The position numbers and the translations under genes are program-made. A stretch of 30,742 bases of DNA from a virus. The DNA lies in IMG/VR virus record IMGVR_UViG_3300042006_000295, positions 1 through 30,742 of that record, one strand, 5' to 3'. Of the stretch, positions 10,725 through 30,742 are shown one piece after another (positions within the stretch are counted from its first letter, which is position 1; each line of letters begins with the position of its first letter). Under the pieces are notes generated by a model. It was not told where the DNA came from, did not search any database, and was given only the letters and a program-made list of their open reading frames with translations.

Positions 10725-11483
10725 TTACTGGCCAGCTTCCAGATTTTCGGCTGCCTCTTGTCGTTGGTGCTTTCTCTCTTCCCAACGTTTGTGCAGAATC
10801 TGCTCGCCTTGTTTTTCCAGCCATTCAACCAGTTTTGAAATCTCTGAGGTCATGTGCAGAAATTTTTCTTTGGTGATGTGAATGTGTGGTGGGTAGAGCC
10901 AGCTTCTCTCGCCATCATCGATCTGCTTCGCTAACTCTTTGTCCCTGTCACTGACGAAAAAAGGGCTCGGTAGCTTCGGAAGGTCGCTATCTCTGTAGCG
11001 GAAGGTATTAGATGTCAGAGACTCGTCATGCTGAATGCTGTTCCGGGCCAAGACTATTTCTGAAACAAGCGAGTAATCGAATGGGCCAGTGTCGAATTTA
11101 TCTGACCCATGCGACTCGTAGTACGCTTGGTAACCTGCAGGCCATCCGTTTTTGAACGCCGCTTTTGTGCAATCTGGAGCAGACCCAAGGCGGTCTTGCC
11201 ATGCAACAAGGTAGATGTGTAGTGATGCGGATATCATCGAAAGGCAGGAGCTGCCCAGTACCTGTATCGATGCATCAGCTTCCTCCCATTCGAGCTGGAA
11301 TGGTGGTTCACCATCCTCGCTATAGGGCGGAATAAATGGACGCACGCCTTTCTCGATCTTTCTCATGCGCTGTTCAAACGGTGCTGAGCCATTGATGTAC
11401 AGCTGCTTGATAAACCCCAGCCGCTGTTCAAAAAAGAAGCGAATATCCATTTCATAGGTCTCGTAAGGTGGGGGCCAGCCCAT
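10725..11483 (-). CDS. Hypothetical protein with HEPN-like R-x4-H motif
   Basis: A 252-residue soluble protein. The middle contains long helices (SIQVLGSSCLSMISASLHIYLVAW) and then SLVSEIVLARNSIQHDESL, where R147 and H152 form the R-x4-H motif typical of HEPN RNases and related helical proteins. The N-terminus shows QRMRKIEKGVRPFIPP and the C-terminus is a charged coiled-coil region. It starts 27 bp after the primase-like gene with a GAGG ribosome site and is likely cotranscribed with it. This could be an RNase effector carried in the replication operon, but many proteins of this shape are uncharacterised. Confidence 0.6.
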   Translation of the reverse strand: MGWPPPYETYEMDIRFFFEQRLGFIKQLYINGSAPFEQRMRKIEKGVRPFIPPYSEDGEPPFQLEWEEADASIQVLGSSCLSMISASLHIYLVAWQDRLGSAPDCTKAAFKNGWPAGYQAYYESHGSDKFDTGPFDYSLVSEIVLARNSIQHDESLTSNTFRYRDSDLPKLPSPFFVSDRDKELAKQIDDGERSWLYPPHIHITKEKFLHMTSEISKLVEWLEKQGEQILHKRWEERKHQRQEAAENLEAGQ

Positions 11484-11510
11484 GATGGCACCTCAGGCTG
11501 GCCGACCATA

Positions 11511-12806: not shown

Positions 12807-12918
12807 GATTGTCTCTCTTGTTATGTTGTGCTTCTGCGCACATTCATAGTGTTGAATATGAGCAAAAGAGTGTGCAACACCTATTTCGCTTGTCATTTTT
12901 GGAAGTCGAGGTATACGA
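12804..12918 (-). repeat. Left arm of the divergent leader/origin inverted repeat
   Basis: The reverse complement of this stretch aligns over about 115 bp with 13172-13289. The most conserved block is TCTTTTGCTCAT followed by TTCAACA and AATGTGCGCAGAAGCAC. It carries the promoter/leader and ribosome site of the primase gene, so the two divergent genes have duplicated control regions. Confidence 0.75.
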
Positions 12919-13171
12919 AAGGAAATTCACTTCAGTTTTTCTTAACCAATTTAACCCTTACCCTCAACGGGTCTCTCTTTTTATAAAAGGAAAGGGACGG
13001 TTGAGGGTGATTGCTGATAGAAAACACCAGGCCGAAAGGACTGGCAAGTAAATTGGTTAAGAAAAACTAAAATCGCAACGCTGCGTTACGCTTCACTCCT
13101 GAGGCTCACGTCTGCGCAACCGAAATCTACCCAGCGTTACCTCGATATCCCTCAATCAACCGTGCGTTACT
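12919..13171. other. Candidate replication origin
   Basis: The centre of the divergent primase/helicase region. It holds a perfect 20-bp inverted repeat (12934-12953 and 13049-13068; one arm reads TAAATTGGTTAAGAAAAACT), an inner inverted pair built on CCCTCAAC/GTTGAGGG, and three GCGTTAC copies in direct orientation (near 13084, 13133 and 13164). The position between the primase and helicase genes and the iteron-like repeats are what is expected of an element's own origin. Origin activity is inference. Confidence 0.55.
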
Positions 13172-13289
13172 TGCATACCTCAATATGTCCATTTGTCAAC
13201 CCAGAAAGGTATTGCATGGTCTTTTGCTCATGTTCAACAATACAAATGTGCGCAGAAGCACGACAACAACACAGAGAGAAATCGAAATG
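13172..13289 (+). repeat. Right arm of the divergent leader/origin inverted repeat
   Basis: Partner of 12804-12918 in inverted orientation. It supplies the leader of the helicase gene, including AGAGAG before the ATG at 13287. An open frame that would extend the helicase N-terminus upstream (from 13185) runs through this repeat and is probably not translated. Confidence 0.75.
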
Positions 13290-15476
13290 CATCAGGTCGA
13301 ACAAAACATCACTGGCGCTGGCAACACTGTTATTATCGGGATGGATTTCCCAATCAATGGCTTCCAAACCGTTGCAGCTGATGATCTAACAGATTCTACG
13401 CAGTACATTAAGAGCGAATACCCAAGCCTTAAAAGACTGGTGAGCATCTCGAACTCTCCAAGCCAAGCAGTTGAAGCGGCATTTAAAACCGCATCAGGCC
13501 TTTACGATCCTCTCTCCGGGAAAATCACAGACAACGTCTATCAACTGAACAGGTCTGACGTTGCGCTGCTCGTGCTCAAAAACGAAATTACAGAAGGCAA
13601 TTTCGGTAAAGCAGCCTACGAATTGGCTCGGGATACATATATTGCCGGAGACAAAGCAGTCGCCGCTCAGCGCCTGGCCTTGGTGTCTGGAAAAAGTGAG
13701 GCCGAATGTGCAATGGCCATCGCTGATAAGACACTTCGCGTTCAGGCGTTCTTCGATTCAAAAAGTGATAGCCATGACTTCCCTGTAGTCCATAAGCCAG
13801 TTTCCGCGTCCTGGCTCCGCTCGGTTCTCCTTCGTCGCGACCGTCGCGCACTGATCAAATGCCCGACTGGGTGGGGCAAAAGCTCCCTCGTCATCAACCC
13901 TTGCATCTCCGACTTCCTAGACGCCGGCAAGAATGTTCTCGTGATTTCTCATCGCCGCTCGATCATCAAGGGCATCGACATCCCTGGTCTGGTTGACTAC
14001 GAAGACGTACAGCCTGGCCAGATGCAGAAAACCCGTGGACTCAAGGTGGTTGTCAACTCACTCATCAGCGCGAAATTTGACGACTTCATCAAAGACGTTG
14101 ATCTGGTTGTGATTGATGAGGCCGCGCAGGTGCTCGATCACGTTTTCGAAGGCTCTGTGCAGCAGCGCGAAGTCGTCTGGAACACCCTCAAGCAGGTTGT
14201 ACACAACGCGAAATCAGTGGTCTTTGCAGACGCCGACGTCAACGACGAATGCCTGGCCCTGATCAAAAAAGGTAAGGAGTTCATTCACTGTTTCGAGATT
14301 GATCAGGCTCACACTGACGTCAACTGCAAAGTAGGCGCCCTCGACCAGGTGCGTGCCATGGCCCTCTCTGCAGCCCAGGCAGGCCAGAACACCCTCATCG
14401 CCTGCGACATTGCTCGTGACGCCGAGGCCCTGGGCAAAGTCCTGGAGAAAGGCGGCATCGAATCATTGGTTATCACCAGCAAAACTGCAGGCTGGCCAGC
14501 CCAGTCAGCTTTCATCAGCAATCCAAACACCACTGCTCACCAGGTGGTGATCTACTCCCCAGCCATCACCAGTGCTCTGAGCATCACCAGTGGCCACTTC
14601 CAAGCGCATTTCGGCCTATTTGAGGGCTCTGTCACACCACGCTCCGCAATCCAGATGATGCGCCGTGACCGCACTGCGAAGGAGTTTGTGATCGGCCTGC
14701 GCAACCCTCAAAACAAGCGGGAAGAGATCGCCCAAGTCGAGTTCGACGCTTCTGCAAAATCCGCGTTCGACGATGTCCGCAAAGCCCACATGACCCGCAC
14801 TGGCTGGCTCCGCGACAACATTCAGCTGACCTTGCCTTACGAGCTGAAACGCCAGGGCTTCCAATTGGAAATGATCCCAAACGACAACGACCTTGGCATC
14901 GAAGGCTTCAAAGCGAACAGCGCTGGTCGCAGAGCAGTGAAGAAGGACACTGCCCTGATCCTTCTTAACGCTACCGCTTCAACCGAAGTCCAGGCCAAAC
15001 GCACACAGAAGATCGGCTCCAGCAGCGAAGCTGAGCACTTTGCCGCAATCCGGTACCAGGCCCAGCAAGGCCTCAAACGAAAGGATCTGACTTTCCAGGA
15101 CGCTCAATTCTGGGGTGAAGGCATCGGACAAGTGAAGCTCGACAACTACCGCAAGCTTTTCGTCGAGCCATCAACCACCTTCGAAGCGCTCGTCCAGGAG
15201 CTGCACACTGGCCTCCTCAATGACACCTGGACTCCAGCTGATTCAGTAGCCCTCTACGACCGAATCAACGCTGTGAGGCACGAAGCAATCCTGGCTGGAT
15301 TCAAAATGCCCAAGAACACCGGATCGGTCTCCGATCGCAGTAAGCAAGGCGCTATCTCCGAAATTATGTCCCTGCATGGTTTGAAAACAAAGCGGAAGGA
15401 TGGCGGTAAGTCAGGGTACTACTACATTATTGATCCGAAGTCCCTTGAGCAGATGGAGGAATACACTGGGCTTTAA
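13287..15476 (+). CDS. Origin-binding-type SF2 helicase, replication initiator
   Basis: A 729-residue replication protein. Walker A is CPTGWGKSS (about residues 192-200), the DExx box is VVIDEAAQVLDH (D277), and IVFADADVND-like and QMMRRDRT segments occupy the later helicase motif positions. The overall layout resembles the herpes origin-binding-protein-like helicases that accompany AEP primases in phages and satellites. The C-terminal 60 residues (ISEIMSLHGLKTKRKDGG) look like a winged helix that could bind the adjacent repeats. ATG at 13287 is chosen for its AGAGAG leader. It heads a rightward operon that runs through resolvases, terminase and tail genes, with 164 bp before the next gene. 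Confidence 0.75.
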   Translation: MHQVEQNITGAGNTVIIGMDFPINGFQTVAADDLTDSTQYIKSEYPSLKRLVSISNSPSQAVEAAFKTASGLYDPLSGKITDNVYQLNRSDVALLVLKNEITEGNFGKAAYELARDTYIAGDKAVAAQRLALVSGKSEAECAMAIADKTLRVQAFFDSKSDSHDFPVVHKPVSASWLRSVLLRRDRRALIKCPTGWGKSSLVINPCISDFLDAGKNVLVISHRRSIIKGIDIPGLVDYEDVQPGQMQKTRGLKVVVNSLISAKFDDFIKDVDLVVIDEAAQVLDHVFEGSVQQREVVWNTLKQVVHNAKSVVFADADVNDECLALIKKGKEFIHCFEIDQAHTDVNCKVGALDQVRAMALSAAQAGQNTLIACDIARDAEALGKVLEKGGIESLVITSKTAGWPAQSAFISNPNTTAHQVVIYSPAITSALSITSGHFQAHFGLFEGSVTPRSAIQMMRRDRTAKEFVIGLRNPQNKREEIAQVEFDASAKSAFDDVRKAHMTRTGWLRDNIQLTLPYELKRQGFQLEMIPNDNDLGIEGFKANSAGRRAVKKDTALILLNATASTEVQAKRTQKIGSSSEAEHFAAIRYQAQQGLKRKDLTFQDAQFWGEGIGQVKLDNYRKLFVEPSTTFEALVQELHTGLLNDTWTPADSVALYDRINAVRHEAILAGFKMPKNTGSVSDRSKQGAISEIMSLHGLKTKRKDGGKSGYYYIIDPKSLEQMEEYTGL

Positions 15477-15640
15477 GGGATTGCCTGGGGGCAAGGATGC
15501 CCCTAATTCACAGCAAGTTGTCCGATACAAGAAAGAATTAAGATAATTGAATAAAAGGCGCGATTAGGTGTTGCGTCAGGTTTTGCTCATTAACGATAAT
15601 AAGATCATAGCAGCACATAATAAGAATAAGAGAGTGCATT
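15477..15640. promoter_or_regulatory. Leader region between helicase and resolvase genes
   Basis: Contains a hairpin GGGGCAAGGATGCCCC just after the helicase stop, with no T run, then an A+T-rich leader with repeated AATAAGA motifs ending in AAGAGAG before a GTG start. A local promoter is plausible, but I cannot place its -10 and -35 with confidence. Confidence 0.35.
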
Positions 15641-16399
15641 GTGAAAGGTCTAGATCCGCAGAAGATTGCTGACATCTTTAAATCAGATTCGTACGCCAAA
15701 CACTTCCAGAAGCCACACGGCTATCTCAATGTCGACAACGAGCTCCTCAAGCTATGTGTTGATGCGTGCTACGAAGTTGAGCAAGCTTTCCCCTGGAATG
15801 ACTACAATCGTCAGGCATACCAGCGCAAGTTTGAGGACGGCGAGTCAATCATCAAGACTCCAGACCTGCCTCGCTACCCGCGCCCATATCGGAGCTGGAG
15901 TGAATTCAGAATGGGGCATTTCGGCGGCATGAAGGGCTTCGATTACGAGCCTTCCGCTTACAAGATTCCTTACTATGTCGAGCATAGCTACCAGCCAGAT
16001 TGGATCGACCCTCTAAATGATCGAATCGTCTACGAGGGCAAAGGGGTTATCGCGGATCTTGAGACTGCTAGGAAATACATCTGTGCTGCGAAGCAGAACC
16101 ACATTCACATCGTCTTCATCTTCTCAAATCGCAATATCAAATGCCCATGGGTTAAGCCTCGTGTTGATGGCACTTCAATGACGATGGAGGACTGGGCTAA
16201 AAAGCAAGGCTTCGACTATTGCTATGAAGGCCAAGAAGCCGCTTTTCGGAAGTCCGATCGTTACAAATGGCTTGTTCAAAACTTCGGACGTAATCTGCCG
16301 TCTCTGAAAGAACAACTCAGCGCAGACGGAATGAATAGCCATCCAGGCTTTTTTGCGCACAAACAACAATCAGCAAGTGTTACAATGACTGTACAATAA
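15641..16399 (+). CDS. T7 endonuclease I-like Holliday-junction resolvase
   Basis: A 252-residue protein whose middle matches the phage endonuclease I fold. KIPYYVEHSYQPDWI provides the PD motif (P119, D120) and VYEGKG the E-x-K (E132, K134), followed by IHIVFIFSNRNIKCPW and MTMEDWAKKQGFDYC, features shared with T7 gp3-type enzymes. Such enzymes cut branched DNA before packaging and in recombination. The gene starts with GTG at 15641, supported by AAGAGAG; no ATG fits better. The usual enzyme is about 150 residues, so this one has extra sequence at both ends. It is followed 20 bp later by a second, unrelated resolvase. Confidence 0.75.
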   Translation: MKGLDPQKIADIFKSDSYAKHFQKPHGYLNVDNELLKLCVDACYEVEQAFPWNDYNRQAYQRKFEDGESIIKTPDLPRYPRPYRSWSEFRMGHFGGMKGFDYEPSAYKIPYYVEHSYQPDWIDPLNDRIVYEGKGVIADLETARKYICAAKQNHIHIVFIFSNRNIKCPWVKPRVDGTSMTMEDWAKKQGFDYCYEGQEAAFRKSDRYKWLVQNFGRNLPSLKEQLSADGMNSHPGFFAHKQQSASVTMTVQ

Positions 16400-16419
16400 C
16401 AATAATAAAGTCAGTCGTT

Positions 16420-16920
16420 ATGCGCCACGTCCTTGGTATTGACCCTGGCCTCTCCGGAGGCATTGCAGTGATCGATGAGAACTTCAATCTTGTCGATTGC
16501 TTTCGTATGCCCGTAAAAGAAATCGGCGGCAAGAATAAGGTCGATGCCGGGGCTCTATTTGATCGTCTTTCCCAATTCAGAATTGACCTTGCGGTACTGG
16601 AGCTGGTGGGCACAAGGCCAGGCGAAGGGGCTGTGGGGGCTTTCAGTTTCGGTGATGGCTATGGCGCTGTCCGTGCTGTTCTGGAATGCCTGGGTATCCT
16701 TTATCGTCTAGAGCGGCCTCAGGCCTGGAGGGGTGGCCAGAGCCTCACTGGCTTGAGCAAGGAGCAAATCGGCGAGATCGCTTTCGAAGTCTTTGGCTCT
16801 GACGAGATCTACCGGGGCAAGCGCCTGAAAAAGGACGGCACTCGTGGGTGCAACGATGGCATCAGCGATGCCCTCATGATTGCCAAGTTCGGCGTGAGGT
16901 TTCTCGATGCGCCGTGCTAA
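16420..16920 (+). CDS. RuvC-like Holliday-junction resolvase
   Basis: A 166-residue RNase H-fold nuclease. The four catalytic acidic residues are visible: D8 (GIDPGLSGG), E61 (AVLELV), D146 and D150 (NDGISDALM). This is the pattern of RuvC and its phage relatives. Such enzymes resolve junctions in replicating or concatemeric DNA ahead of packaging. It is 14 bp overlapped with the terminase small subunit gene, consistent with translational coupling. The leader ATAACAATAATAAAG is nearly repeated upstream of the 20215 tail gene. It lies at the position where lambdoid phages carry Rus or NinG-type resolvases. Confidence 0.85.
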   Translation: MRHVLGIDPGLSGGIAVIDENFNLVDCFRMPVKEIGGKNKVDAGALFDRLSQFRIDLAVLELVGTRPGEGAVGAFSFGDGYGAVRAVLECLGILYRLERPQAWRGGQSLTGLSKEQIGEIAFEVFGSDEIYRGKRLKKDGTRGCNDGISDALMIAKFGVRFLDAPC

Positions 16921-17434
16921 TCAGCTGTCCGCAAAACTCGTCAAAAAGATCGTGGAAGGTGTCCAGCGGACTACCACCATCGAGCTCGCCTGCGCAATTG
17001 CCGGGGTCTCAGAAGCGGGATTTTACAAGTGGCAAGCACTGGGCAGGGCCTTGATCGCAGGCGAGGTCGATCAGGACGAAATGACCCCAGACGAGTTGCT
17101 TTGTGTAGAGCTTGTGGAGTCTGTTGAGCTTGCCAGGAAATTATCCTGCCTCCCCGCGATCGACACCATTCAGAAAGCAATCAAAATGGGAGACGTCAAA
17201 GCAGCAGAGAAGCTATTGGCCAGGCGCATGCCGGATGCGTTCGGTGACTACGATCGGAAGGAAGTCACGATCAAGACCGACAGCACGGGCGAACAGAATT
17301 CCGGCATCGCAAATATCCCAACGCTCAGCAGCGCTGCAGGCCAAGATCTCGAAGCCATCCTCATTCAGCAGCAGGCCGCAGCCGTAGACCTTGCCAGATC
17401 GTCAACACAGGCGAGGAAGCCAGGTCATGATTAA
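16907..17434 (+). CDS. terS: Phage terminase small subunit
   Basis: A 175-residue protein starting inside the end of the RuvC-like gene. The N-terminus has a helix-turn-helix (TTIELACAIAGVSEAGFYKW) for binding packaging sites, followed by a helical oligomerisation region (ELLCVELVESVELARKLSC, AIKMGDVKAAEKLLARRMPDAFGD). The motif RMPDAFGDYDRKEV and a disordered C-terminus are typical of small terminases. It would recognise the pac or cos site and recruit the large subunit. It overlaps the next gene by 8 bp. The call rests on the fold pattern and the position before the large terminase. Confidence 0.8.
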   Translation: MRRANQLSAKLVKKIVEGVQRTTTIELACAIAGVSEAGFYKWQALGRALIAGEVDQDEMTPDELLCVELVESVELARKLSCLPAIDTIQKAIKMGDVKAAEKLLARRMPDAFGDYDRKEVTIKTDSTGEQNSGIANIPTLSSAAGQDLEAILIQQQAAAVDLARSSTQARKPGHD

Positions 17435-17885
17435 GCAGCGCACCCGATTCGACTGTGGGATCGCCTCTTTCGCGACCGCGCTTCAGCTGACGTACGAACA
17501 GGCGCTCAACCTATTCGCACCCCAATCAGATCTCGTGGGCACAACAGCCATAGACACGGCTAACGCTCTCACACAGCTCGGCATCCCGAATCAATACGTG
17601 ACGTTCCCGGAGTTCTACACGCAAATCGGTCGCCCCGGAAATCCCTGCAATCCCGACATTATCCGAGGCTGTCCCGCGATCCTGACGATCCTCTCTCGCA
17701 GTGGTTATGGCCTGCATGCGGTTTACTGGGATGGTCACCAGGCACATGACCCAGACCCTCGCTACCCCGAGCAGAGAGCACTGGAATCCCTGATCCTGCT
17801 CGAAGCTGTGTTTGTAAGCAAAACACCTGCTTTGTGCGCAAAAAGCGGAGCGGTGTTGCAGGGCTTTGAGGGGTTGCCAGCATGA
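17427..17885 (+). CDS. C39-like cysteine peptidase-fold protein
   Basis: A 152-residue protein with a papain-like layout: RTRFDCGIASFATAL near the N-terminus (catalytic Cys10), later GLHAVYWDGHQAHDPDP (His97 with a nearby Asp at 108 or 110). This matches bacteriocin-processing C39-type or related cysteine-protease folds without any transporter domain. ATG at 17427 is preferred, with GAGGAAG 10 nt upstream. It overlaps the small terminase by 8 bp and the large terminase by 4 bp (ATGA), so it is translationally coupled to packaging genes. Its role is unknown; it may process a head or tail protein or act on the host. Confidence 0.7.
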   Translation: MIKQRTRFDCGIASFATALQLTYEQALNLFAPQSDLVGTTAIDTANALTQLGIPNQYVTFPEFYTQIGRPGNPCNPDIIRGCPAILTILSRSGYGLHAVYWDGHQAHDPDPRYPEQRALESLILLEAVFVSKTPALCAKSGAVLQGFEGLPA

Positions 17886-19321
17886 CCGCGATGCTGCCTC
17901 GAAAGGCGTTGAACTCTGCCGTTCGCCGGGTGATTTGGGAGCCTACAAAGAACAAATCCGGAGGGCTTTCGAGCCAGGAGATGTTCCTAATCGTTGGCCA
18001 GCCCGACACGCTCGTGCACGAAGTTTTGTTTCATGGCACTCGCGGAAATGGAAAGTCCGCCTGCCTACTCATGGGGTTCGCTCAGCACGTTGGGAAAGGC
18101 TGGGGTGCGTACTGGAGAGGTGTGATTCTCCGTCGTCAGTATTCGGCTCTGCGCGACCTGATCAACGAAGCCGAAAAGGTATTCCCACGCCTCTTTCCCG
18201 GTGCGACCTACAACAAAAGCGAGAGGACTTGGACGTTTCCGGAAGGCGAAGTCCTGATCTTTCAGTACATCGAGAAAGCCAGTCAGTACGAGGCCAAATT
18301 CCACGGCCAGCAGTTCACGTATATCGGTTTTGATGAGCTCACGACCTGGGCTACCGACGAGATCTACGAGAAGCTCCTTTCGACCTTGCGTACAGCGTAC
18401 CAACCGACACCCCGCCAGCCCCTGATGCCCCCAAAACAAGTCAGGGCAATGACCAACCCCTGGGGCCTCGGTAAGAGGTGGGTCAAGGAGCGATTCATCG
18501 ACGGCAAGCGCAACGGCGAGATCGAGCGCACGATCAAAACCCTGGTCGACGAGGACGGCAACAGCCAGGAAATCGAATGGAAGCGCTGTGCGATCTTCGG
18601 GACGGTTTTTGAAAACAAATACGTCGACCTTGAGTACAAGGCATGGTTGATGAACATCGCCGATCCCATGCTCAGGGAAGCCTGGCTTTACGGGAACTGG
18701 GAAGTGGTCGATGACACGGCGATGTTTGCCAAGGTTTGGGATCGGGACGTCCATATCCTGCAGCCGTTTGAAATACCGGCGTCATGGAAGGTGGATCGCT
18801 CATTCGACTACGGTCAGTCGACTCCGTTTTGCTGCCTGTGGACTGCAGAAGCAAATGGCGAAGCCATCACAGTCGGTGGCAAGGTTTTCTGCCCGCCCAG
18901 GGGGTCGCTGATCATCTGCGGCGAGGACTACGGAACGCCTTTGACGCCTGATGGCAAGCAACAGAAAAGGGATTTGGGGTTGTTTCTCAGTGCCGGCAAG
19001 ATTGGCGCCCGCCTGAAGTCCAGGGAAGTGAAGCTACAGACCACAGTGTTGAAAAATCACGCTCGTATCGCTGCTGGCCCGGCGGATAATCAAATCTTCA
19101 ACGGCGCCCTGGTCGACAATGGCACCGCACCGACTGTTGCAAAGGAATTGGCGAAGGAAGGCATCACTTTCACGCAGTCTGACAAGCGTGCCGGCAGCCG
19201 GATCACATCAGCACAGATCATGTTTGAGCGCCTGCAAGCCACCGCAGACCGCAATCCCGAAAAGCCCCATACCCATCTGGCCCTATCAGTCCGAGCTCGC
19301 AGAACCCGTTTCGAGGTTTGA
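17882..19321 (+). CDS. terL: Phage terminase large subunit, C-terminally truncated by a gene fusion
   Basis: A 479-codon frame with a good terminase N-terminus. Walker A is GTRGNGKS (52-59), Walker B YIGFDE (147-152), and the coupling motif region follows. The RNase H-like nuclease domain begins at WKVDRSFDYG (D305) and continues through GPADNQIF (D402) and GSRITSAQIMFERL. Real homology stops at about residue 463 (NPEKPH); the last 16 codons are out-of-frame reading of a tail gene. Intact relatives carry roughly 60 more residues with the third nuclease acid (DAEDH-type motif), which is missing here. The ATPase could still fold; concatemer cleavage is doubtful. The loss comes from a deletion that removed all head and most tail genes. 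Confidence 0.85.
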   Translation: MTAMLPRKALNSAVRRVIWEPTKNKSGGLSSQEMFLIVGQPDTLVHEVLFHGTRGNGKSACLLMGFAQHVGKGWGAYWRGVILRRQYSALRDLINEAEKVFPRLFPGATYNKSERTWTFPEGEVLIFQYIEKASQYEAKFHGQQFTYIGFDELTTWATDEIYEKLLSTLRTAYQPTPRQPLMPPKQVRAMTNPWGLGKRWVKERFIDGKRNGEIERTIKTLVDEDGNSQEIEWKRCAIFGTVFENKYVDLEYKAWLMNIADPMLREAWLYGNWEVVDDTAMFAKVWDRDVHILQPFEIPASWKVDRSFDYGQSTPFCCLWTAEANGEAITVGGKVFCPPRGSLIICGEDYGTPLTPDGKQQKRDLGLFLSAGKIGARLKSREVKLQTTVLKNHARIAAGPADNQIFNGALVDNGTAPTVAKELAKEGITFTQSDKRAGSRITSAQIMFERLQATADRNPEKPHTHLALSVRARRTRFEV

Positions 19322-21032: not shown

Positions 21033-23405
21033 ATGGGCGCTCTCGCTATTTTTCAAATAATCATGATGGTCATTGCTGTGGCCATGATGTTTATTGGCAG
21101 CAAAGTAAAAGATGACCGCAAGCCTGCTGGGTTAGAGGATTTTACTTTCCCGACTGCGGCGGAGAGACCAATTCAAGTTCTGTACGGGACTCGAAAGCTT
21201 GGGGGTGCAAACGTTCTCTGGTACGGAGATCTCCGCTCAAAAGAAATTACGAAGAAAGTGAAATCAGGCTTCTCGTCAAAAAAGATGACGATTGGCTATA
21301 AGTACTTTATGGGTGTCCAGTTGGGCATTTGCCATGGCCCTGACGTAACGCTTAAAGAGGTTTGGTTTGACGACGACAAGGCGTGGTCAGGTCAAGTGAC
21401 CTCTGGGTCGTTCACGATCAACAAGCCTGATCTGTTTGGCGGCGAAGAAAGCGGTGGCGGTGTCCAGGGCACGGTAAGTTTCTACAATGGGGGTTTGATA
21501 CAGAAAGCCAACGCATACCTCCAGCGCGTAGTGGGCATCGACATCGTCTCCGGCCTGCGCGGCGTTTGCTATGCCGTCCTTGAGCAGTTCTACATCGGCA
21601 ACACTGAAACTCCGGCAAAAGTCTCTTTCGTCTGCAGCCGATTCCCCAAATCACCAGCCGGTAACATCAGCCTGGAAGTCATCGGCAACGACGCAAACCC
21701 AGCTTATGTCATCCATGAGTTTCTGACTGATAAACGCTTTGGAGCATCGATCTCAGCATCCCTGGTCGACCTCAGAACGATCGAAGCATGCGCCCAAACC
21801 CTGCAAAACGAAGGATATGGCGTAAGCGGCGTGGTCGACTCAGCAAGGCAAGCATCTGCAGTCATCGATGACATTCTCAAAGTCATCAATGGATCTCTCG
21901 TCACTGACGCGGCCACCGGCCAGCTCAAACTGAAACTGGCTCGGGAAGACTACGTGATCGCCGATCTGCCGGCCCTGAATGCTAGCAACATCAAGGGCAT
22001 CAGCAACTTCAATCGTGGCTCGTTAGACACTGCTGTGAACGAAGTCAAAATCAAGTACATGTCGATCGCTGACGGCTTCACCGAGCGCACGGCAACGGCT
22101 CAAAATTTGGGGCTGCGAATCCACAAGGGCGACAGCGACGGCGTCAGCTACGACTTCATGTCCATCTCCACTGGAGCACTGGCTGCCAAGGTCGCGCAGC
22201 GAGAGCTCAGACCGCTGTCGGTGCCACTGGCGAGCTGCATCGTTGAGTGCAACAGGAGCATGTACGACATCGAAATGCTCGACGTTGTCACTCTCGATTG
22301 GCCCCCACTGAACGTCCAAGGCTTGGTCATGCGCGTTATGAGCGTCGACGTTGGCAGCTTGAACGACAGCTCGATCAAATTGACTCTCACTCAGGACGTT
22401 TTCGGCGTTCAAAACACTGTGTACGCCGACGGCGGCGAGCACGTATGGACAAAGCCAGTCTTCGAACCTATCGATCCCCCTGGCATCCAAATCGTCGAAG
22501 CGCCGGCAATCTTCAACGCAACTGCTGGCCTGACGCGCACGCTCATGACGCTTGTTGAGCAGCCAGCAGCAGGCCAGAACTACAAGCTGATCACGCGCCA
22601 AGGCATCGAGAGCTGGTCTGAACAGGGCGACTATCCGTTCACGCCAATTTTCACCCTCAACGAGGCTATCCCAGCGAGCCCCGCAACCCTAACCAGCGGC
22701 CCCATCGTCAGTGGCGATATCTCCCTGCTGGACAACTACAGCACAAACGAAAACCGCGAAGCCCTGGGCATCCTCTACATCGCTGGCGAGTGGTTGTCTT
22801 ACGAGACTTTCACGATCCTCACCAGCAGCACAGCTCAGCTCAAAAACGTCAGGCGAGCTCTCTTCGGCAGCACCGCAAAAGCACACCTCGTCAGCACGAA
22901 AGTCTGGGCCGTCTCCGAAGGCTATGGCATCACTCAAGGCCAGTTCACAGCAGGCTCGGCGGTGTACCTGAAGACGCTCGTAAAAACTCAAACCCGCCGC
23001 CAAACCGAGCCCGAAGCAGCTGAAAAAAGCTTTGTCGTCAAAGGCGTCAATGACCATGTTTTCCCGCCTGTGAGGGTGTTGGTCAACGGAGTCGAGGGTG
23101 GGGAGATTTCTGGGACTGCAGAGGTGTCCTGGAGGTATCGGAGCGGGGCTGTACAGGAGGTCGCTTTTTACACTGATGATCGAGATCAGGCGTTTGCAGG
23201 CACCGTGTCGATTGCGGTGTATTCGGAAGGCGTGAAGGTTGAGCAGGTGGATAACCTGACTGGGAATTCCTGGCAGTTTGAGGGCGAGGCGTCTAGCAAT
23301 GGAGGGGTGCTGCGGGGCGAGCTGGAGATCATGGTTAGCACGTACAGCGCGGGGGGCAGCTCAGATCCAATCGTTGTCAGAGTCACTCGATCGACATTAC
23401 CCTGA
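21033..23405 (+). CDS. Phage tail tip protein (Phage-tail_3 / J-like)
   Basis: A 790-residue tail-tip protein. It begins with a hydrophobic helix (ALAIFQIIMMVIAVAMMFIG), then FPTAAERPIQVLYGTRKLGGANVLWYGD and YKYFMGVQLGICHGPDVTLKEVW, which are characteristic of central tail-tip proteins in Pseudomonas siphophages and Mu-like phages. A Phage-tail_3-like section is near the middle (DVVTLDWPPLNVQGLVMRVM) and the C-terminus is beta-rich, ending in a likely receptor-facing domain (QEVAFYTDDRDQAFAG). AAGAAG precedes the ATG by 8 nt. No deletion is visible. It would form the tail tip and contact the host surface, but no tube, sheath or tape measure genes are encoded here. A terminator follows. Confidence 0.8.
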   Translation: MGALAIFQIIMMVIAVAMMFIGSKVKDDRKPAGLEDFTFPTAAERPIQVLYGTRKLGGANVLWYGDLRSKEITKKVKSGFSSKKMTIGYKYFMGVQLGICHGPDVTLKEVWFDDDKAWSGQVTSGSFTINKPDLFGGEESGGGVQGTVSFYNGGLIQKANAYLQRVVGIDIVSGLRGVCYAVLEQFYIGNTETPAKVSFVCSRFPKSPAGNISLEVIGNDANPAYVIHEFLTDKRFGASISASLVDLRTIEACAQTLQNEGYGVSGVVDSARQASAVIDDILKVINGSLVTDAATGQLKLKLAREDYVIADLPALNASNIKGISNFNRGSLDTAVNEVKIKYMSIADGFTERTATAQNLGLRIHKGDSDGVSYDFMSISTGALAAKVAQRELRPLSVPLASCIVECNRSMYDIEMLDVVTLDWPPLNVQGLVMRVMSVDVGSLNDSSIKLTLTQDVFGVQNTVYADGGEHVWTKPVFEPIDPPGIQIVEAPAIFNATAGLTRTLMTLVEQPAAGQNYKLITRQGIESWSEQGDYPFTPIFTLNEAIPASPATLTSGPIVSGDISLLDNYSTNENREALGILYIAGEWLSYETFTILTSSTAQLKNVRRALFGSTAKAHLVSTKVWAVSEGYGITQGQFTAGSAVYLKTLVKTQTRRQTEPEAAEKSFVVKGVNDHVFPPVRVLVNGVEGGEISGTAEVSWRYRSGAVQEVAFYTDDRDQAFAGTVSIAVYSEGVKVEQVDNLTGNSWQFEGEASSNGGVLRGELEIMVSTYSAGGSSDPIVVRVTRSTLP

Positions 23406-23445
23406 GCCTGGTCAATTTCGTTACGACCATGGAGAAATCATTAGA

Positions 23446-23468
23446 ATCCCCGCGCTGCGGGGATTTTT
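23446..23468 (+). terminator. Intrinsic terminator of the rightward late operon
   Basis: Perfect 8-bp stem ATCCCCGC/GCGGGGAT with a GCT loop, followed by five T on the plus strand. It separates the tail operon from the convergent TIR gene. Confidence 0.9.
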
Positions 23469-23485: not shown

Positions 23486-24277
23486 TTAGATGCCAACCCC
23501 TGGAATCGGATCAAACCAGTTGGCTTTTGTTTCGTGAAGAACATCCACAAGCTCAACTGCCTCACAGCCAGTCTTGGGCTTAAGTGTGAATGTCATAGGG
23601 AAGTTTGGTCTGATATTCCCACTAAGCGGATGTATGACAATCTTCGTGAATTTACCTGCACCTTCAATCTCGTGAAGCTGTTGCGGCAGTGCTTGAATGC
23701 CAGGTGCGCCTTCTATCCATGCAAACACCTGGTCAACGCTGTTTCTGACCAAAAACATAAACTTCGGATTCGATTCCTGGAGATGTGACGCTTTGACAGT
23801 GATCTTCAGTTCTGTCTCTGGCGCGCCCGTCACCTCATAAGTCAGATTTGAAAAAGCAGCGTGCTTAGGGGTGAATTCGGGTTTTCCTGAAATTCGATCT
23901 TTGATCTGCTGGATAGTCGTATCGATACCATTTCGATGCATGTCGATATAAGCTTTGTCCATTACGATTGCTGGCAACGCAACTCCGTCGACTCGCACTG
24001 GGACGAAGGTGATCATACCTTTAGCGGCTTGATGCAACGCGCTCTGCCATTCCAAGCCGACCATTCCGCTCTTCAGACTGTTTTCAGTCACAAAGAACAG
24101 AAAGAAGTCAGGAGACGCGAGGCCTTCATTCATTTTGCCGATGATGCTGTCGCCAGGCTGAATAGACCAGTCATCGTAAAAGACCGAGTCTTGACCGTAA
24201 ATCTTCCTCAACTCAATAGCGACTGGCTCTACAACCGGTTTGTCTTGATAGTTGTGGCTTAAAAAAATCGTAGGCAT
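23486..24277 (-). CDS. TIR-domain protein with C-terminal beta-rich domain
   Basis: A 263-residue protein. Residues 1-130 form a TIR domain: MPTIFLSHNYQDKPVVEPVA, VFYDDWSIQPGDSIIGKMNEG, SPDFFLFFVTENSL, then GLEWQSAL in which E76 is the candidate catalytic glutamate of NAD-cleaving TIRs. The remaining 130 residues are beta-rich (YEVTGAPETELKITVKASHL, FTKIVIHPLSGN) and may sense a ligand or partner. Bacterial TIR proteins commonly deplete NAD+ or make signalling nucleotides during antiphage defence. It has GGGAGATGTGCC before ATG and lies 58 bp downstream of the relaxase gene in the same direction, so it is likely cotranscribed with mobilisation genes. No dedicated sensor gene (for example an Argonaute or SIR2 partner) is adjacent. 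Confidence 0.85.
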   Translation of the reverse strand: MPTIFLSHNYQDKPVVEPVAIELRKIYGQDSVFYDDWSIQPGDSIIGKMNEGLASPDFFLFFVTENSLKSGMVGLEWQSALHQAAKGMITFVPVRVDGVALPAIVMDKAYIDMHRNGIDTTIQQIKDRISGKPEFTPKHAAFSNLTYEVTGAPETELKITVKASHLQESNPKFMFLVRNSVDQVFAWIEGAPGIQALPQQLHEIEGAGKFTKIVIHPLSGNIRPNFPMTFTLKPKTGCEAVELVDVLHETKANWFDPIPGVGI

Positions 24278-24335
24278 GGCACATCTCCCTTGTGTCGGAT
24301 GGCCAATCCTACACTGAGTGATGGCCAGTTGACTG

Positions 24336-25526
24336 CTAGTGATTCACGGCCAGTATGGGATCCTTCTCCCACGCCTCCGTCAAATCTCGTTCCTGCTCGA
24401 CCTGCGGCAGTGAAGTCCACCCCGAACGCAGCTGGTAGTAGGGCTCGCCTGGCTTTTTGTCTTCAAATTCGAAATTGGCGCGGATTCCGAACAGTGCCAG
24501 CAGGATGGCCATGATTAGCTTGATCGTGGCTTCGAGCTCTTTTTGGTTTTGTACTGCGATGCTGAGACGGATGGCTCGACGATTGCGGGCGCGGAGGACG
24601 AGATAGAAAATTCGGACTCGCTTTTCGCGTTCGCTATCTCTTCGAGCAGCTTCTGCCTCAAGGCGGTGAAAGGTTTCGGGATCATATTGGATACCCTCCT
24701 GGGTGGTGAGTTTTTGGAATGTAAGGCGGCTTCGCTTGAGCTTTCTGCCTGAGATGACTGTGCCCTGGTACTCGTATGCAATCCCCGTGGGCTGGCCATC
24801 GTTGTTTTTGGTGAAGTGCACGTAGACCCGCTGCTGGCGCAGGAGCTGGATGAGCATGAACATGTCGCCTTGGGCCTGTTGAGTGGCTTCGACGGCACCT
24901 GCGATCTTCGCGATCATTCTGTGCTTGAGAGGGATCGTCCCTTCGCGCTCAGCGGCTTCCAAGGCGTTCCTGGAAATTGCGGTTCCCCAGGTTTCCGTAG
25001 GCGATGGGGCTTTGCTTAGGCCGAAGTGATCCTCAATCCTGGAGGTGGAGTCACAGCTGCGGGAGCGCTCGTTGCTGTCCCTCACCATGCTGAACTCTTC
25101 ATCCAGGCGAATGCGGTTTGCGACGATATGGACATGCTCGTGATCCGTATCACCATGAAGAACAGCGACCCACTTGTTCGTCTCATCAAAGCCGAGGTCG
25201 GACAGGTACATCTCGATCGCTGCGCGCCATTGATCGTCGTCCAGATGCTCTCCAGGAGGTAAGGCCAGGATTGCGTGCCATACAGGCTTGATAACCCGGT
25301 CGCTGTCGATGGCGTTGTTTCTCAGCTTCTCAACAGAATCAAATTCGGCAATCATCCCTTCAACGTCAATCTTGTCGTGGCCATGGTGAAGTGGATCAGG
25401 AGAAAAGCAATTACGCCCGATTGTTCTGATTGTTGTAAGGGCATGCTCATGCTTTCGAAGTCCGAAGATATATTCGATTCGGTTGCGAAATGAACCGATG
25501 CCCTTGTCTGTGATTTTTCCAATCAT
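24336..25526 (-). CDS. Relaxase/mobilisation nuclease (MOBP/VirD2-like)
   Basis: A 396-residue relaxase. The three-histidine metal motif is visible as LHGDTDHEHVHIVANR (H124, D126, H129, H131, H133), the pattern of PF03432 relaxases. The N-terminal Tyr in NRIEYIFGL is a candidate nucleophile. The middle (QGDMFMLIQLLRQQRVYVHF, YEYQGTVISGRKLKRSRLTF) is typical of mobilisation relaxases, and the C-terminus carries a possible transmembrane helix (ATIKLIMAILLALFGI). I start at ATG 25526, 4 nt after the mobC stop with GGAG 9 nt upstream; a TTG at 25541 is the alternative. It would nick oriT and let the element or its circular form be mobilised by a conjugative helper. No type IV secretion genes are in the window. 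Confidence 0.85.
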   Translation of the reverse strand: MIGKITDKGIGSFRNRIEYIFGLRKHEHALTTIRTIGRNCFSPDPLHHGHDKIDVEGMIAEFDSVEKLRNNAIDSDRVIKPVWHAILALPPGEHLDDDQWRAAIEMYLSDLGFDETNKWVAVLHGDTDHEHVHIVANRIRLDEEFSMVRDSNERSRSCDSTSRIEDHFGLSKAPSPTETWGTAISRNALEAAEREGTIPLKHRMIAKIAGAVEATQQAQGDMFMLIQLLRQQRVYVHFTKNNDGQPTGIAYEYQGTVISGRKLKRSRLTFQKLTTQEGIQYDPETFHRLEAEAARRDSEREKRVRIFYLVLRARNRRAIRLSIAVQNQKELEATIKLIMAILLALFGIRANFEFEDKKPGEPYYQLRSGWTSLPQVEQERDLTEAWEKDPILAVNH

Positions 25527-25530
25527 CTTA

Positions 25531-25857
25531 TTATTCTCCAATGCCCAGCAGGCGATTATTTAATTCAAATAACTCCTGGATAACTTGCTCAGGGTCTTCG
25601 CCTTTATTGATCAGGCCAGCTATCCGTTGCAGTTCCAAGGAAAGTTGGATATGAGCCAGGGGAATGCGCACCTTACCTGGGACTTTGGAGTAGATCAGGA
25701 AGTCGCGAACGAAAGCGCCTGCGGCCTGGTAGCCGGTTTCTTCACACTTGCCCTTAATGATCTCTCGCTCGTTTGCACTCAAGCGAATGATGAGCGGCTT
25801 GTCTCGGCGTTTGGCAGCATCCAGTGTTGGTCTGCCTTTCTTGTTATTATTATTCAC
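25531..25857 (-). CDS. mobC: MobC-like relaxosome protein (ribbon-helix-helix)
   Basis: A 108-residue accessory protein of the relaxosome. The KRRDKPLIIRLSANEREIIKGK strand-helix is a ribbon-helix-helix-type DNA-binding start, and the PGKVRIPLAHIQLSLELQRIAGLINKG region matches MobC-like proteins. The initiation codon is best placed at GTG 25857 (GGAGG 6 nt upstream), followed by an A/T-rich NNNNKK start; the open frame extends to 25917 but without a comparable ribosome site. It precedes the relaxase gene by 4 bp, and a perfect 15-bp palindrome upstream probably mediates its own control. It helps the relaxase bind and melt oriT. Confidence 0.8.
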   Translation of the reverse strand: MNNNNKKGRPTLDAAKRRDKPLIIRLSANEREIIKGKCEETGYQAAGAFVRDFLIYSKVPGKVRIPLAHIQLSLELQRIAGLINKGEDPEQVIQELFELNNRLLGIGE

Positions 25858-25891
25858 GCGCAACCTCCGAAGGAGAGTGAGCAGCATTAAA

Positions 25892-25906
25892 TGTCTATCA
25901 TAGACA
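25892..25906. promoter_or_regulatory. Palindromic operator upstream of mobC
   Basis: Perfect TGTCTAT-C-ATAGACA palindrome, 35 bp before the preferred mobC GTG. It fits autoregulation by the ribbon-helix-helix MobC protein or a relaxosome binding site. Confidence 0.6.
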
Positions 25907-25965
25907 CAACTGGCCACCCATAAGATCTAGTTTTATTATGCAAATGGAGCAAGGGGTGGTGAAAG

Positions 25966-26059
25966 TGTTTTGTTAAAAACATCTGACTTAAATGGCGATA
26001 AAAGTGCCTCAAATGGCAACTCAAGTGCCAGCTATGACAACAGAGGTGCCTTAAATGGC
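25966..26059. other. Candidate oriT with ordered AAATGGC/AAGTGCC repeat array
   Basis: A hairpin TGTTTT-GTTA-AAAACA (25966-25981) lies next to an ordered set of heptamers: AAATGGC at 25990, 26011 and 26053, and A(A/G)GTGCC at 26002, 26023 and 26044. The first two pairs repeat with a 21-bp period (two helical turns) and the last pair is in reversed order. The location upstream of mobC and the relaxase suits an oriT or relaxosome site; the nick position is not evident. Confidence 0.5.
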
Positions 26060-26440
26060 CCGATATACTTCTGACTTCGCAAGTTGTCAATGCTACATAT
26101 CATGATGGTTACTCCATTCGAGTGCGAACAGGCTCAAATGTCGCAGCAAGTGAGTGCGATCCCACGAGATGTCACAGGCGATGAGAGTGAGCGGCAGCCA
26201 TGTCACTGGGAGGTGGTGCGAGAGGGGGACGTGCCGCAGTCGTACAGAGTGACTCATGGCCATGTCGCACTCCGACTGAGCAGAAGCTGGTGACTTGTGT
26301 AGGCAGTGTCAGTCGTGAGTGCCGTGGATTGGACAGACAAATCCAACGTACAGCTCTGGTGGTGACTGGACTGATCTGAAGCCAGGGGAACGAAAGGGAG
26401 TCTTTAAGCGGACGTGAGGTGTGCGATGAGTGGTTCTGAA

Positions 26441-26463
26441 ATTGCACACTGAGTGCACACGGG
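26441..26463 (+). promoter_or_regulatory. TGCACAC double repeat, site C (putative integrase arm site)
   Basis: Third copy of the two TGCACAC repeats with an 11-bp period (26443 and 26454), the second followed by GGG. It mirrors sites A and B near int and lies 60 bp inside the right candidate att site. Confidence 0.5.
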
Positions 26464-26522
26464 ATATCTGGAAGATCTGCAGCAGGCCAGTAAAATCAAG
26501 CCTTTCAGGCGGGTTTGTCGAT

Positions 26523-26558
26523 CCCATCCATCATGGGGGCAACAGAAAAGCGGCGGGA
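26523..26558 (+). repeat. Candidate right attachment site (attR)
   Basis: Direct repeat partner of 5362-5397, 29 of 36 bases identical without gaps. The element between the two is about 21.2 kb. Imperfect identity means either divergence outside a short core or an older integration. Confidence 0.45.
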
Positions 26559-26599
26559 GAGTGGAGCAGGTTGTAGGAGCATTGGAAATCTGAGTCATC

Positions 26600-26623
26600 G
26601 GGGCGAATGGGGCGAATGGGGCG
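26600..26623 (+). repeat. Short tandem repeat GGGGCGAAT
   Basis: 2.7 perfect copies of a 9-bp unit just outside the right candidate att site. No function is evident. Confidence 0.7.
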
Positions 26624-26744
26624 CAGTTTATCAGGGTTGCTTGTCGGCCACCTCGCGCGTTCTCAAACCTCGCCACTCATTTTTCGGTGATGTCCAACAG
26701 ACCGCATGCTCGGTTAGGGGTCGACGCGCACCTTGTGTTGATAA

Positions 26745-26764
26745 ATTATTGTGGATACGATAAT
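26745..26764. promoter_or_regulatory. Operator of the brnTA operon
   Basis: Imperfect palindrome ATTATTGT-GGAT-ACGATAAT (one mismatch between arms) ending 3 bp before the brnT ATG. It suits repression by the ribbon-helix-helix antitoxin BrnA or the BrnTA complex. Confidence 0.6.
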
Positions 26765-26767
26765 TGC

Positions 26768-27043
26768 ATGCAGATTACTTATGACCCAGCCAAAGATGCT
26801 CGCAACGTCGAAGAACGTGGACTCCCGTTTGCCCTCGTGCGGGACTTTGAATGGTCTACCGCATTGATCCTGGAGGATGATCGATTCGACTACGGTGAGT
26901 GTCGTTATCGGGCGATGGGATACATAGGGGATCGGCTGCATGTCGTAGTGTTTACACCACGGGGTGACGCGGTCCACGTCATCAGCTTTCGTAAAGCCAA
27001 CAAACGGGAGGTCAAAAATCATGACCAAGAAACCCAGTCCTGA
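26768..27043 (+). CDS. brnT: BrnT-family ribonuclease toxin
   Basis: A 91-residue toxin of the type II BrnT/BrnA system, an RNase that halts translation until neutralised by BrnA. The family pattern is clear: ITYDPAKDARNVEERGLPF, then WSTALILEDDRFDYGECRYRAMGYI, LHVVVFTPRGDAVHVISFRK and ANKREVKNHD. The basic and acidic residues in these blocks correspond to the RelE-like active site. The ATG at 26768 gives the canonical N-terminus; the frame is open upstream to 26687 but the operator lies there. It overlaps brnA by 23 bp. Its location just outside the right att candidate could stabilise the flanking replicon or island. Confidence 0.93.
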   Translation: MQITYDPAKDARNVEERGLPFALVRDFEWSTALILEDDRFDYGECRYRAMGYIGDRLHVVVFTPRGDAVHVISFRKANKREVKNHDQETQS

Positions 27044-27329
27044 GAAGGTCGAAACGGCAAATCCCGAATGGACGACTGAAGACTTTGCCAGGGCCAAACC
27101 AGCCAGCGAGGTGCTTGTGGGATTGTTTGGCAAGGCTCAGGCAAATGAAATGCTCAAGCCAAAGCGTGGCCGGCCAAAGTCGGCAGCCACTAAAGAGCAC
27201 GTCAATGTTCGTTTCGATGCCGACGTGCTGGAGAGATTCAGAGCCTCAGGGCCGGGCTGGCAAACACGGATGAACGCCGCCTTGGCCGATTGGCTTAAGA
27301 CGCATAAGCCAGAAGAGCTGAAGGCTTAG
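27021..27329 (+). CDS. brnA: BrnA-family antitoxin
   Basis: A 102-residue ribbon-helix-helix antitoxin. The C-terminal half has the DNA-binding and dimerisation pattern EHVNVRFDADVLERFRASGP and WQTRMNAALADWLKTH, typical of BrnA. The N-terminal part (NPEWTTEDFARAKPASEVL) wraps the toxin. ATG at 27021 has GGGAGG 9 nt upstream, inside brnT. It should repress the operon through the palindrome at 26745-26764. A strong terminator follows. Confidence 0.93.
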   Translation: MTKKPSPEKVETANPEWTTEDFARAKPASEVLVGLFGKAQANEMLKPKRGRPKSAATKEHVNVRFDADVLERFRASGPGWQTRMNAALADWLKTHKPEELKA

Positions 27330-27571: not shown

Positions 27572-29146
27572 CTAGCGTCCGTAAATAAGTGATGCCTTGC
27601 GCATTTCCTCATCTTTGTTTTTGCCTTTGAGGTCCACGATTGTAAATTGATGAACTTTTCGTGCGGCAGAATATTGACTCAAGTCGAGCATGTATGCTTC
27701 AAATAGCTCTCCTTTTGCACCGGTCTTTAATGTGACTCGTGATTTTACCGGGTGGACCAGGCGCAGGTCGATTAATTGATCCAAAGCACTTCTTGCATCA
27801 TTTTTAAGATCCTGAGATACAAGAAAGACATTGCATTTTGATTTTTCAGTGCAGAAAGTCACAAGTTTTCCGAACTCGGCAAGTAACGCATCGCGATCCT
27901 CTGCGGAGTCAAGTTTAAACTCTTCTCGTTTGAAGGAGTCATAATCTCCAGTTGCAAGGTTTACGTCTTCTGCGCCGACTTTTGGGCCTCGGTGGTTGTT
28001 GACTCCTCGCTCTCGAGCTTGCGCAATAGCCCCTGAAAAGATTCCAATAAAGTCCCGTACAACTCCACCGGACGCGATAATTAGTCGATCAATTGCTGTA
28101 GAGTTTAATAAGTTTGCAGTGCTAATTGGCGGTGTTTCATTCATCAAATTTGTTAGGATTTTCTTCAAGAATACGTGTAGTGTTTCGAAGCGTTCTAAGG
28201 ATATATCAAGATTTATTTCTTTGGCGTCATCACCAAGTTTAACTCCGATTGGTGGGTCAGAGTGTTGATACCATTGGGTGCGGTGCTTTATAGTTCCTAC
28301 CTTTAGCCACATTCCATTACCTTTGCCGACCCGATGAAAATAATCAATAACCTTTGCCTGGTCATTTTTGCGGATATGGTATAAGTCGTCAAGAATTAGG
28401 AAAGACGGGCCGTCCGATAGCTCAGAGAGGTCTGCAAAAAATCTTTGATATTTTAGTATGTTTTGATGGAGGTATTCGACTTTGTGGGAGACGTAACTTG
28501 CTTGCAATTCATGATTTCTTGTTTCAGAGCTTCCACTCTTACCCGCGACTTTTGCAGCCACCGGGCCGGTTTTACCTGATAGAGATACGTCAATTCCATT
28601 GTTGTCAGATGTGCCGCTTTTGGTTGTCGCTTGGTGAGTGGCCGTTTCGGGGTTGCGTAACTGAATATCCAAATCAGCAATCATTGCGCCTAACACTTTC
28701 GAGAGATCGGCGGTTTTGGCTTTATTAAAAGGAGGACGGTTGGGAGCTTTACCGAAAAATCTCTTCCAGAAGGAAGTCTTGTTAGAAGAGGTTGTCGCTG
28801 CCTCATCTAACCATTTCTTAAACTCTTGTAGACTTTTAATGAGGACGCTAATTAGCACGTCGGGATAAGAGTGTCCTTTAAAGGTTTCCATATCCACAAA
28901 AGATATAGGGCGTCGATCAATCGTGAGGTCCGCCGCAGTTTTACGTAATAAGCTAGACTTACCTGAGCCCCTACGACCAAAAATCATATTATGCTGCTGA
29001 GCTTTTGCGCGAGCCAAGACACCCGGCGCAGGCTCAATAAACCGATGCGCCCCTGCTGCAGTGGCACGCATCACTTCGTCACATAAAATCAATAAGTCGT
29101 CTACTGCGCTCAAATCAAGTTGTGAAGCGGGTATTGGTTTTACCAT
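27572..29146 (-). CDS. P-loop ATPase of unknown function
   Basis: A 524-residue protein. Walker A is FGRRGSGKSS (57-65) and Walker B SFLILDDLYHI (about 245), followed by sensor-like VGTIKHRTQW and a helical lid region with IDRLIIASGGVVRDFIGIFS, similar to ORC/STAND-type AAA+ ATPases. An insertion of about 80 residues between Walker A and B is Ser/Thr- and Lys-rich. The C-terminal 120 residues (LVTFCTEKSKCNVFLVSQDL, LDQLIDLRLVHPVKSRVTLK) look like a winged helix. It is low in GC, stands alone, and has GGAAGGCGG before ATG. Single-gene ATPases of this kind are often island cargo, sometimes antiphage; no specific system is recognised. Confidence 0.65.
   Translation of the reverse strand: MVKPIPASQLDLSAVDDLLILCDEVMRATAAGAHRFIEPAPGVLARAKAQQHNMIFGRRGSGKSSLLRKTAADLTIDRRPISFVDMETFKGHSYPDVLISVLIKSLQEFKKWLDEAATTSSNKTSFWKRFFGKAPNRPPFNKAKTADLSKVLGAMIADLDIQLRNPETATHQATTKSGTSDNNGIDVSLSGKTGPVAAKVAGKSGSSETRNHELQASYVSHKVEYLHQNILKYQRFFADLSELSDGPSFLILDDLYHIRKNDQAKVIDYFHRVGKGNGMWLKVGTIKHRTQWYQHSDPPIGVKLGDDAKEINLDISLERFETLHVFLKKILTNLMNETPPISTANLLNSTAIDRLIIASGGVVRDFIGIFSGAIAQARERGVNNHRGPKVGAEDVNLATGDYDSFKREEFKLDSAEDRDALLAEFGKLVTFCTEKSKCNVFLVSQDLKNDARSALDQLIDLRLVHPVKSRVTLKTGAKGELFEAYMLDLSQYSAARKVHQFTIVDLKGKNKDEEMRKASLIYGR

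Positions 29147-29749: not shown

Positions 29750-30742
<993 letters not shown>

Follow-up and report, generated by a model that had tools for sequence, protein, structure and literature searches.

SpbK, a TIR protein encoded by ICEBs1 of Bacillus subtilis, binds a phage portal through its non-TIR half and thereby triggers NAD+ loss (PMC8880864, PMC11984713). In P2, the interval between gpA and Q is an anti-phage hotspot (Rousset et al. 2022, PMC9122126), a small and highly variable slot between conserved phage genes that holds diverse anti-phage cargo including TIR and SIR2 genes. MOBP relaxase-MobC modules occur in IncQ2 and other small mobilizable plasmids and in cyanobacterial plasmids, and relaxase modules also occur in integrative mobilizable elements (iMOBs). 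Prophage defense slots, single-gene TIR defenses and mobilizable elements are thus each already known.

Here we analyze a stretch of 30,742 nucleotides (the window), in which a TIR gene lies behind a relaxase gene and mobC in a prophage. By analogy, SpbK of ICEBs1 is the closest studied protein in logic to the TIR protein of the window. Both are single TIR genes coding for about 265 aa, both are cargo of a mobile element that resides in the chromosome and brings its own transfer genes, and both join the TIR domain to one other domain and share the conserved catalytic Glu (E192 in SpbK, E76 in the window). However, SpbK has an N-terminal sensor and a C-terminal TIR domain whereas the TIR domain of the window protein is N-terminal, and because the domain order is opposite we do not claim membership in the SpbK family; descent from it was rejected on the same ground. 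SpbK also has its own promoter and lives in a conjugative element rather than a prophage, and only for SpbK have NADase activity and the portal trigger been proven.

The slot described below resembles the P2 hotspot, and a homologue of the window TIR (contig L060) sits in the gpA–Q slot itself, but the slot of the window borders a relaxase gene, its cargo can share the relaxase strand, and the phage family is unrelated and uncultured. The mobilization module is 29–31% identical to the plasmid modules and has the same order of a MobC/NikA-like protein and a MOBP relaxase, the HUH motif and a presumed oriT upstream of mobC; unlike them, it is resident in a temperate phage. With iMOBs the window element shares an integrase, a relaxase, an oriT-like site and cargo, and no mating-pair genes were seen. 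After a large deletion it approaches the iMOB state, while a near-identical relative keeps its virion genes.

Results

A prophage that has lost its virion genes

The window is an IMG/VR virus record, so that the "element" of the initial annotation is a prophage; the annotation had missed both this and the fixation of the mobilization genes in a phage lineage. The left prophage end is marked by a tyrosine integrase gene (5501–6649, + strand), and the right end probably lies near 26640, where homology to other prophages ends. The gene for the tail-hub protein (21033–23405, +), the convergent neighbor of the TIR gene, served as the marker of the family.

The first 13.8 kb from the integrase (5501–19271) are 99.92% identical to positions 1–13771 of an intact twin prophage of 49,905 bases (G001), and the right part of the window resumes at about 43,650 of the twin. 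At the junction (19260–19280), which has at most 2–3 bp of microhomology, about 29.9 kb are missing. In the twin, the lost segment contains the portal, head morphogenesis, neck, major tail and tape-measure genes, and the terminase ORF of the window is cut at the junction and runs into a tail gene. Because the portal, head and tape-measure genes are deleted, the window element cannot make particles alone and does not qualify as a functional temperate phage, whereas the twin has the virion genes. What it keeps is the integrase, the mobilization module and the TIR gene. Of the parts of an integrative mobilizable element it has the integrase and the relaxase, with a putative oriT, and its origin is a phage. 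The deletion could be real, and an assembly artifact is less likely.

A DNA search of 50,697 phage records gave no match, and the tail hub was at most 33% identical to phage proteins among the matches listed; since the "phages" collection holds no close homologue, we regard the phage family as uncultured. No isolated phage in that collection encodes this TIR. Judging from the flanking genes, the host is probably a Pseudomonas. Rfam and tRNA searches of the window returned nothing, so there is no tRNA att site, and the only direct repeats found as att candidates were 9-mers, which are not convincing.

Other genes of possible interest flank the prophage. To the left of the integrase lies an AIPR/AbiU-like abortive infection gene (487–2208, −; PADLOC E 4e-35), beside which are two genes without an assigned function (2351–3604 and 3714–4640). 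A BrnT-BrnA toxin-antitoxin pair (26687–27329, +) is located just outside the probable right end, followed by a gene for an ORC-CDC6-like/KAP-type ATPase weakly similar to Mad8 (27572–29146, −), which is adjoined by IS3-type transposase genes (29750–30740).

Arrangement of mobC, relaxase and TIR genes

The three genes lie on the − strand: mobC (25531–25857), encoding a MobC/NikA-like accessory protein of 108 aa from a GTG; the MOBP-type relaxase gene (24336–25541), 401 aa from a TTG or 396 aa from the conserved ATG at 25526, which is common to all relatives; and the TIR gene (23486–24277), 263 aa. The initial annotation had placed the TIR gene 58 bp behind the relaxase, in the same direction and without a visible terminator, and the ORF coordinates and a pattern scan both agree with this. 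The gap (24278–24335, −) has a ribosome-binding site, GGGAG, and the scan found 0 promoter and 0 terminator matches across it among the promoter kinds that it covers; a promoter of a type outside these patterns could be present. A candidate promoter of the whole unit, TTCACC-17-CATAAT with a conserved −10, lies at 25935–25963 (−). Judged by this layout, the TIR gene is likely co-transcribed with mobC and the relaxase. The relaxase-TIR order is kept in five further contigs, with relaxase identities of 76–100%, so it is not due to chance.

A hairpin, AAAAATCCCCGCAGCGCGGGGATT, lies at 23445–23465 between the convergent TIR and tail genes. As its T-run is on the + (tail) side only, it is mainly a terminator of the tail operon. 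In the relative L017 the same hairpin is directly 3′ of the relaxase stop, whereas in the window it follows the TIR gene; the TIR cassette is thus the segment between the relaxase stop and the hairpin, and the 58-bp gap forms the left edge of the exchanged cassette.

A TIR domain joined to a predicted beta-sandwich

Residues 3–118 match TIR_2 (PF13676) with E 1.2e-21 and 77.9 bits, against a curated cut-off of 28. The N-terminal part of the AlphaFold model (mean pLDDT 77) has a TIR fold, with structure matches to SPARTA, PdTIR and Cat1 at Z 12–14, and the putative catalytic Glu76 aligns with the conserved Glu of PdTIR (chain 3h16) and is invariant across 17 relatives. Cat1, SPARTA TIR-APAZ and Thoeris ThsB are alike in fold and conserved Glu, but the window TIR has a different second domain and no CRISPR, Argonaute or ThsA partner. 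Thoeris was rejected because no ThsA is present and the TIR neighbors are the relaxase and tail-hub genes, and a retron-TIR because the match is limited to the TIR part. PADLOC gave weak matches, mostly to TIR kinds, and no system-level call. Comparison of the full-length model with viral protein structures gave no interpretable match.

The C-terminal domain (residues 138–263; 23489–23866, −) had been described as beta-rich, which the prediction bears out: modeled alone, it forms a confident Ig/CBM2-like beta-sandwich (pLDDT 88). The structure search that the annotation had proposed for this domain returned CBM2-type and Ig-like proteins as the closest, the best at Z 9.3 with an rmsd of 3.0 over 99 residues. 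At Z ~9, this likeness of the model to carbohydrate-binding and Ig-like beta-sandwiches is one of common arrangement. A match at Z 7 to one domain of diphtheria toxin was likewise taken as a common beta-sandwich, and kinship was rejected. Conservation is strong in the TIR half and far weaker in the C-terminal half; such variability would be expected of a sensor, which the C-terminal domain likely is.

A mobilization module fixed in the phage lineage

The relaxase matches PF03432 (E 7.7e-22, 78.4 bits) and MobC matches the NikA-like/MobC family (E 1.7e-7, 31.7 bits). Tyr24 and the motif HxDxDHxHxH (H129, H136, H138) are invariant in 11 relaxases, so that the family match, the HUH histidines and the catalytic Tyr together predict a MOBP relaxase. 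Scanning 2.9 million viral contigs with the relaxase alignment yielded 27 loci. In a parallel scan for the tail hub, of which the best 80 matches were kept, the relaxase follows the tail hub in 21 of the 23 testable close relatives (at least 40% identity and more than 1.2 kb of downstream DNA). The two exceptions, L102 and L103, are contigs that end 3.3 kb downstream, and in their nearest relatives the relaxase is 4.6–4.8 kb downstream. Near the tail hubs of distant relatives (at most 36% identity) this relaxase was not found (0/50, 26 of them with at least 5 kb of downstream DNA). Relaxase and tail distances are correlated (Mantel r 0.73, p 2e-4). By these comparisons, the mobC-relaxase module is a fixed part of the phage lineage, and the relaxase context is a property of the phage and not of the TIR gene.

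Where dS was not saturated and gave a value, dN/dS was mostly 0.06–0.22 for the relaxase and 0.04–0.13 for mobC. Together with the site described below, both genes thus appear to be maintained under purifying selection in a temperate-phage lineage. A plasmid search found no match to the mobC–TIR DNA. In one phage, L108 (IMGVR_UViG_2554235138_000005), the relaxase is 73–85% identical to those of the window group while the tail hub is only 45–47% identical, and because of this mismatch we infer that the module has moved between phage sublineages at least once.

An oriT-like site upstream of mobC

Upstream of mobC there is a conserved non-coding region (25858–26640), of which the part next to mobC persists even in the most distant relatives. 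The region contains an oriT-like site or MobC operator, GCCAGTTGTGTCTATGATAGACA (25892–25914, −), in which a conserved block, GCCAGTTGTGTCT, runs directly into a palindrome (TGTCTAT-G-ATAGACA in the window). The arms partly covary among relatives (TGTCTG-TGG-CAGACA in L087), and one-sided changes occur too. Nearly all testable relatives have the site upstream of mobC, strictly linked to it. Across the whole viral collection, two 23-base patterns of the site hit 17 contigs, one copy each and all with this relaxase, and L080 has the site with one mismatch. The conserved CATAAT, with TTCACC 17 bases before it, is just upstream. The layout suggests a candidate oriT with an autoregulated mobC promoter, although an operator alone would give a palindrome too. 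The region had no match among 72,556 plasmids, and inspection by eye of the DNA upstream of mobC in pWES-1 showed no like site.

A short sequence from the site, CAACTGGCCA, recurs in the window (25907–25916, +, and 24322–24331, −). The second copy is just 3′ of the relaxase stop, where the TIR cassette has its left edge; it is present there in the TIR-bearing phages read and in none without TIR. The recurrence could be accidental or a remnant of an insertion mediated by the relaxase.

An exchangeable cargo slot

Comparison of the window with L008 delimits the cassette sharply. The TIR gene is 99.4% identical in nucleotides (dS 0.024), whereas the relaxase is 79.1% (dS 1.07) and the tail gene 83.7% identical (dS 0.72), with identity changing abruptly at the relaxase stop and ahead of the tail gene. 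These steps at the cassette ends indicate that the TIR gene travels between phages separately from the relaxase. Besides the window, only 5 of the 27 relaxase loci have TIR, and behind this relaxase there is usually other cargo; L011 has TIR at a contig end.

That cargo is rich in defense genes. The slot holds SduA/Shedu in L114 (E 2.7e-172, on the relaxase strand), a SIR2_2 protein with a ParA-like partner in L023 (E 1e-19) and also in L021, an AAA, OLD/Gabija-like ATPase in L017, and in L090 a NACHT protein that follows a frameshifted relaxase; exonuclease-like and membrane proteins occur in further relatives. In L094, a gene 63 bp behind the relaxase and on its strand (9739–11226, −) encodes a 495-aa protein that matched no family and, by its position, is a candidate new defense gene. 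With the same flanks and sister cargoes of TIR, SduA, SIR2, AAA/OLD-like and NACHT genes, the slot between mobC-relaxase and the tail-hub gene is a prophage defense hotspot.

Two of these loci have features of their own. The ParA-like ATPase gene of L023 overlaps the SIR2-like gene by 4 bp (7079–8937, +), and the two make a candidate two-gene defense system. The relaxase gene of L090 is split by a frameshift (582–1744) in a phage fragment with the NACHT gene.

TIR homologues elsewhere

Full-length homologues with the same C-terminal domain and 36–47% identity occur on their own in other prophages. One lies behind ren in a lambdoid prophage of E. coli (L040), and others lie near replication-O, DnaB-like and antiterminator-Q genes in lambdoid contexts (L052–L054, L056) or near genes that are terminase-like by sequence appearance, with no Pfam match (L051, L055, L057, L058). 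In a P2-like prophage (L060), the homologue is flanked by gpA and the portal gene. In Firmicutes, the homologue of L004 lies within a type I RM operon, that of L005, a Ruminococcus contig, immediately follows an MmeI-type restriction enzyme, and that of L006 has an EcoRI-type methylase and a GmrSD-like gene next to it. Most homologues have no relaxase nearby, and among 12 more distant viral TIR loci that we read none has one. Such stand-alone occurrence in lambdoid and P2-like prophages and RM loci fits defense and does not fit an obligate tie to the relaxase. On L005 (5989–12570), a MobC-relaxase pair lies 4–5 kb downstream of the TIR homologue, a second and independent case of TIR near mobilization genes.

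Discussion

We consider it quite probable that the TIR gene acts against phages on its own and occupies a prophage defense slot as exchangeable cargo; its function is most likely a single-gene abortive defense by NAD+ cleavage. In the lysogen, TIR would be transcribed from the promoter upstream of mobC. The C-terminal beta-sandwich would bind something made by the infecting phage, much as SpbK binds the portal through its non-TIR region, and binding would trigger TIR oligomerization and NAD+ cleavage; the cell would die or stop before the invader multiplies, and the prophage and its kin would be protected. MobC and the relaxase probably nick at 25892–25914, after which a helper conjugative system would move the (pro)phage DNA, a process for which TIR would be dispensable.

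The initial annotation had offered a defense passenger as one of three readings, and it is the one that the exchangeable cassette, the other defense genes of the slot and the lone homologues in prophages and RM loci favor. The other two, that TIR guards the element during transfer or excludes competitors and is for this reason under mobilization control, have some appeal, as the gene follows the relaxase on the same strand after 58 bp without a terminator, and SduA in L114 and the 495-aa gene in L094 are also behind the relaxase on its strand. The neighbor survey that it had proposed cuts both ways: the order holds in five further contigs, yet only 5 of the 27 relaxase loci have TIR. Since the homologues are mostly without a relaxase and TIR recombines independently of it, a functional link between the two is unlikely. 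Still harder to accept is a chance landing of a small integrative mobilizable element (mobC-relaxase-TIR) beside the prophage. Relaxase modules do occur in such elements, and L108, whose relaxase is far closer to that of the window than its tail gene is, indicates that the module can move, but the linkage to close and not to distant tail hubs largely refutes an unrelated insertion, and the conserved non-coding DNA runs past mobC to the common prophage end. We give similarly little credence, if anything even less, to a secreted virulence effector that mimics eukaryotic TIR signaling, as proposed for BtpA/TcpB and PdTIR: sequence similarity to TcpB/BtpA is weak (E about 1e-3), the homologues come from prophages, RM loci and gut Firmicutes, conservation of the C-terminal domain extends across phyla, and the neighborhood showed no gene for secretion or injection.

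The role of the mobilization module is a separate question, and for either answer TIR would still be defense cargo. The module might serve the phage itself, by nicking for replication or packaging or by repressing its own operon. Its fixation and co-inheritance with the tail gene and the lack of any mating-pair genes seen would suit such a role, and the palindrome could be merely a MobC operator. However, the phage encodes helicase-type replication genes and a terminase of its own, the relaxase and MobC belong to plasmid mobilization families, and the conserved block beside the palindrome exceeds what an operator needs; an internal role thus strikes us as rather doubtful. We tentatively suggest, as a possibility somewhat short of an even chance, that the phage lineage keeps a working relaxase-MobC-oriT set, can spread both in virions and via conjugative systems, and expresses the slot cargo with the transfer genes.

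The less expected part of these findings is a mobilization module fixed in a temperate-phage lineage; in the open-access papers searched, we found no description of a prophage family with a MOBP relaxase, MobC and an oriT-like site beside a defense slot. The slot is a place to seek new defense genes, such as the 495-aa gene of L094, and the family that joins TIR to a predicted beta-sandwich is a compact system for finding out what in a phage is sensed by a TIR protein. Provided that the module works, two routes of spread are available to the phage, and the loss of virion genes, as in the window, would leave a ready-made mobilizable element, which would be a path from phage to mobilizable island.
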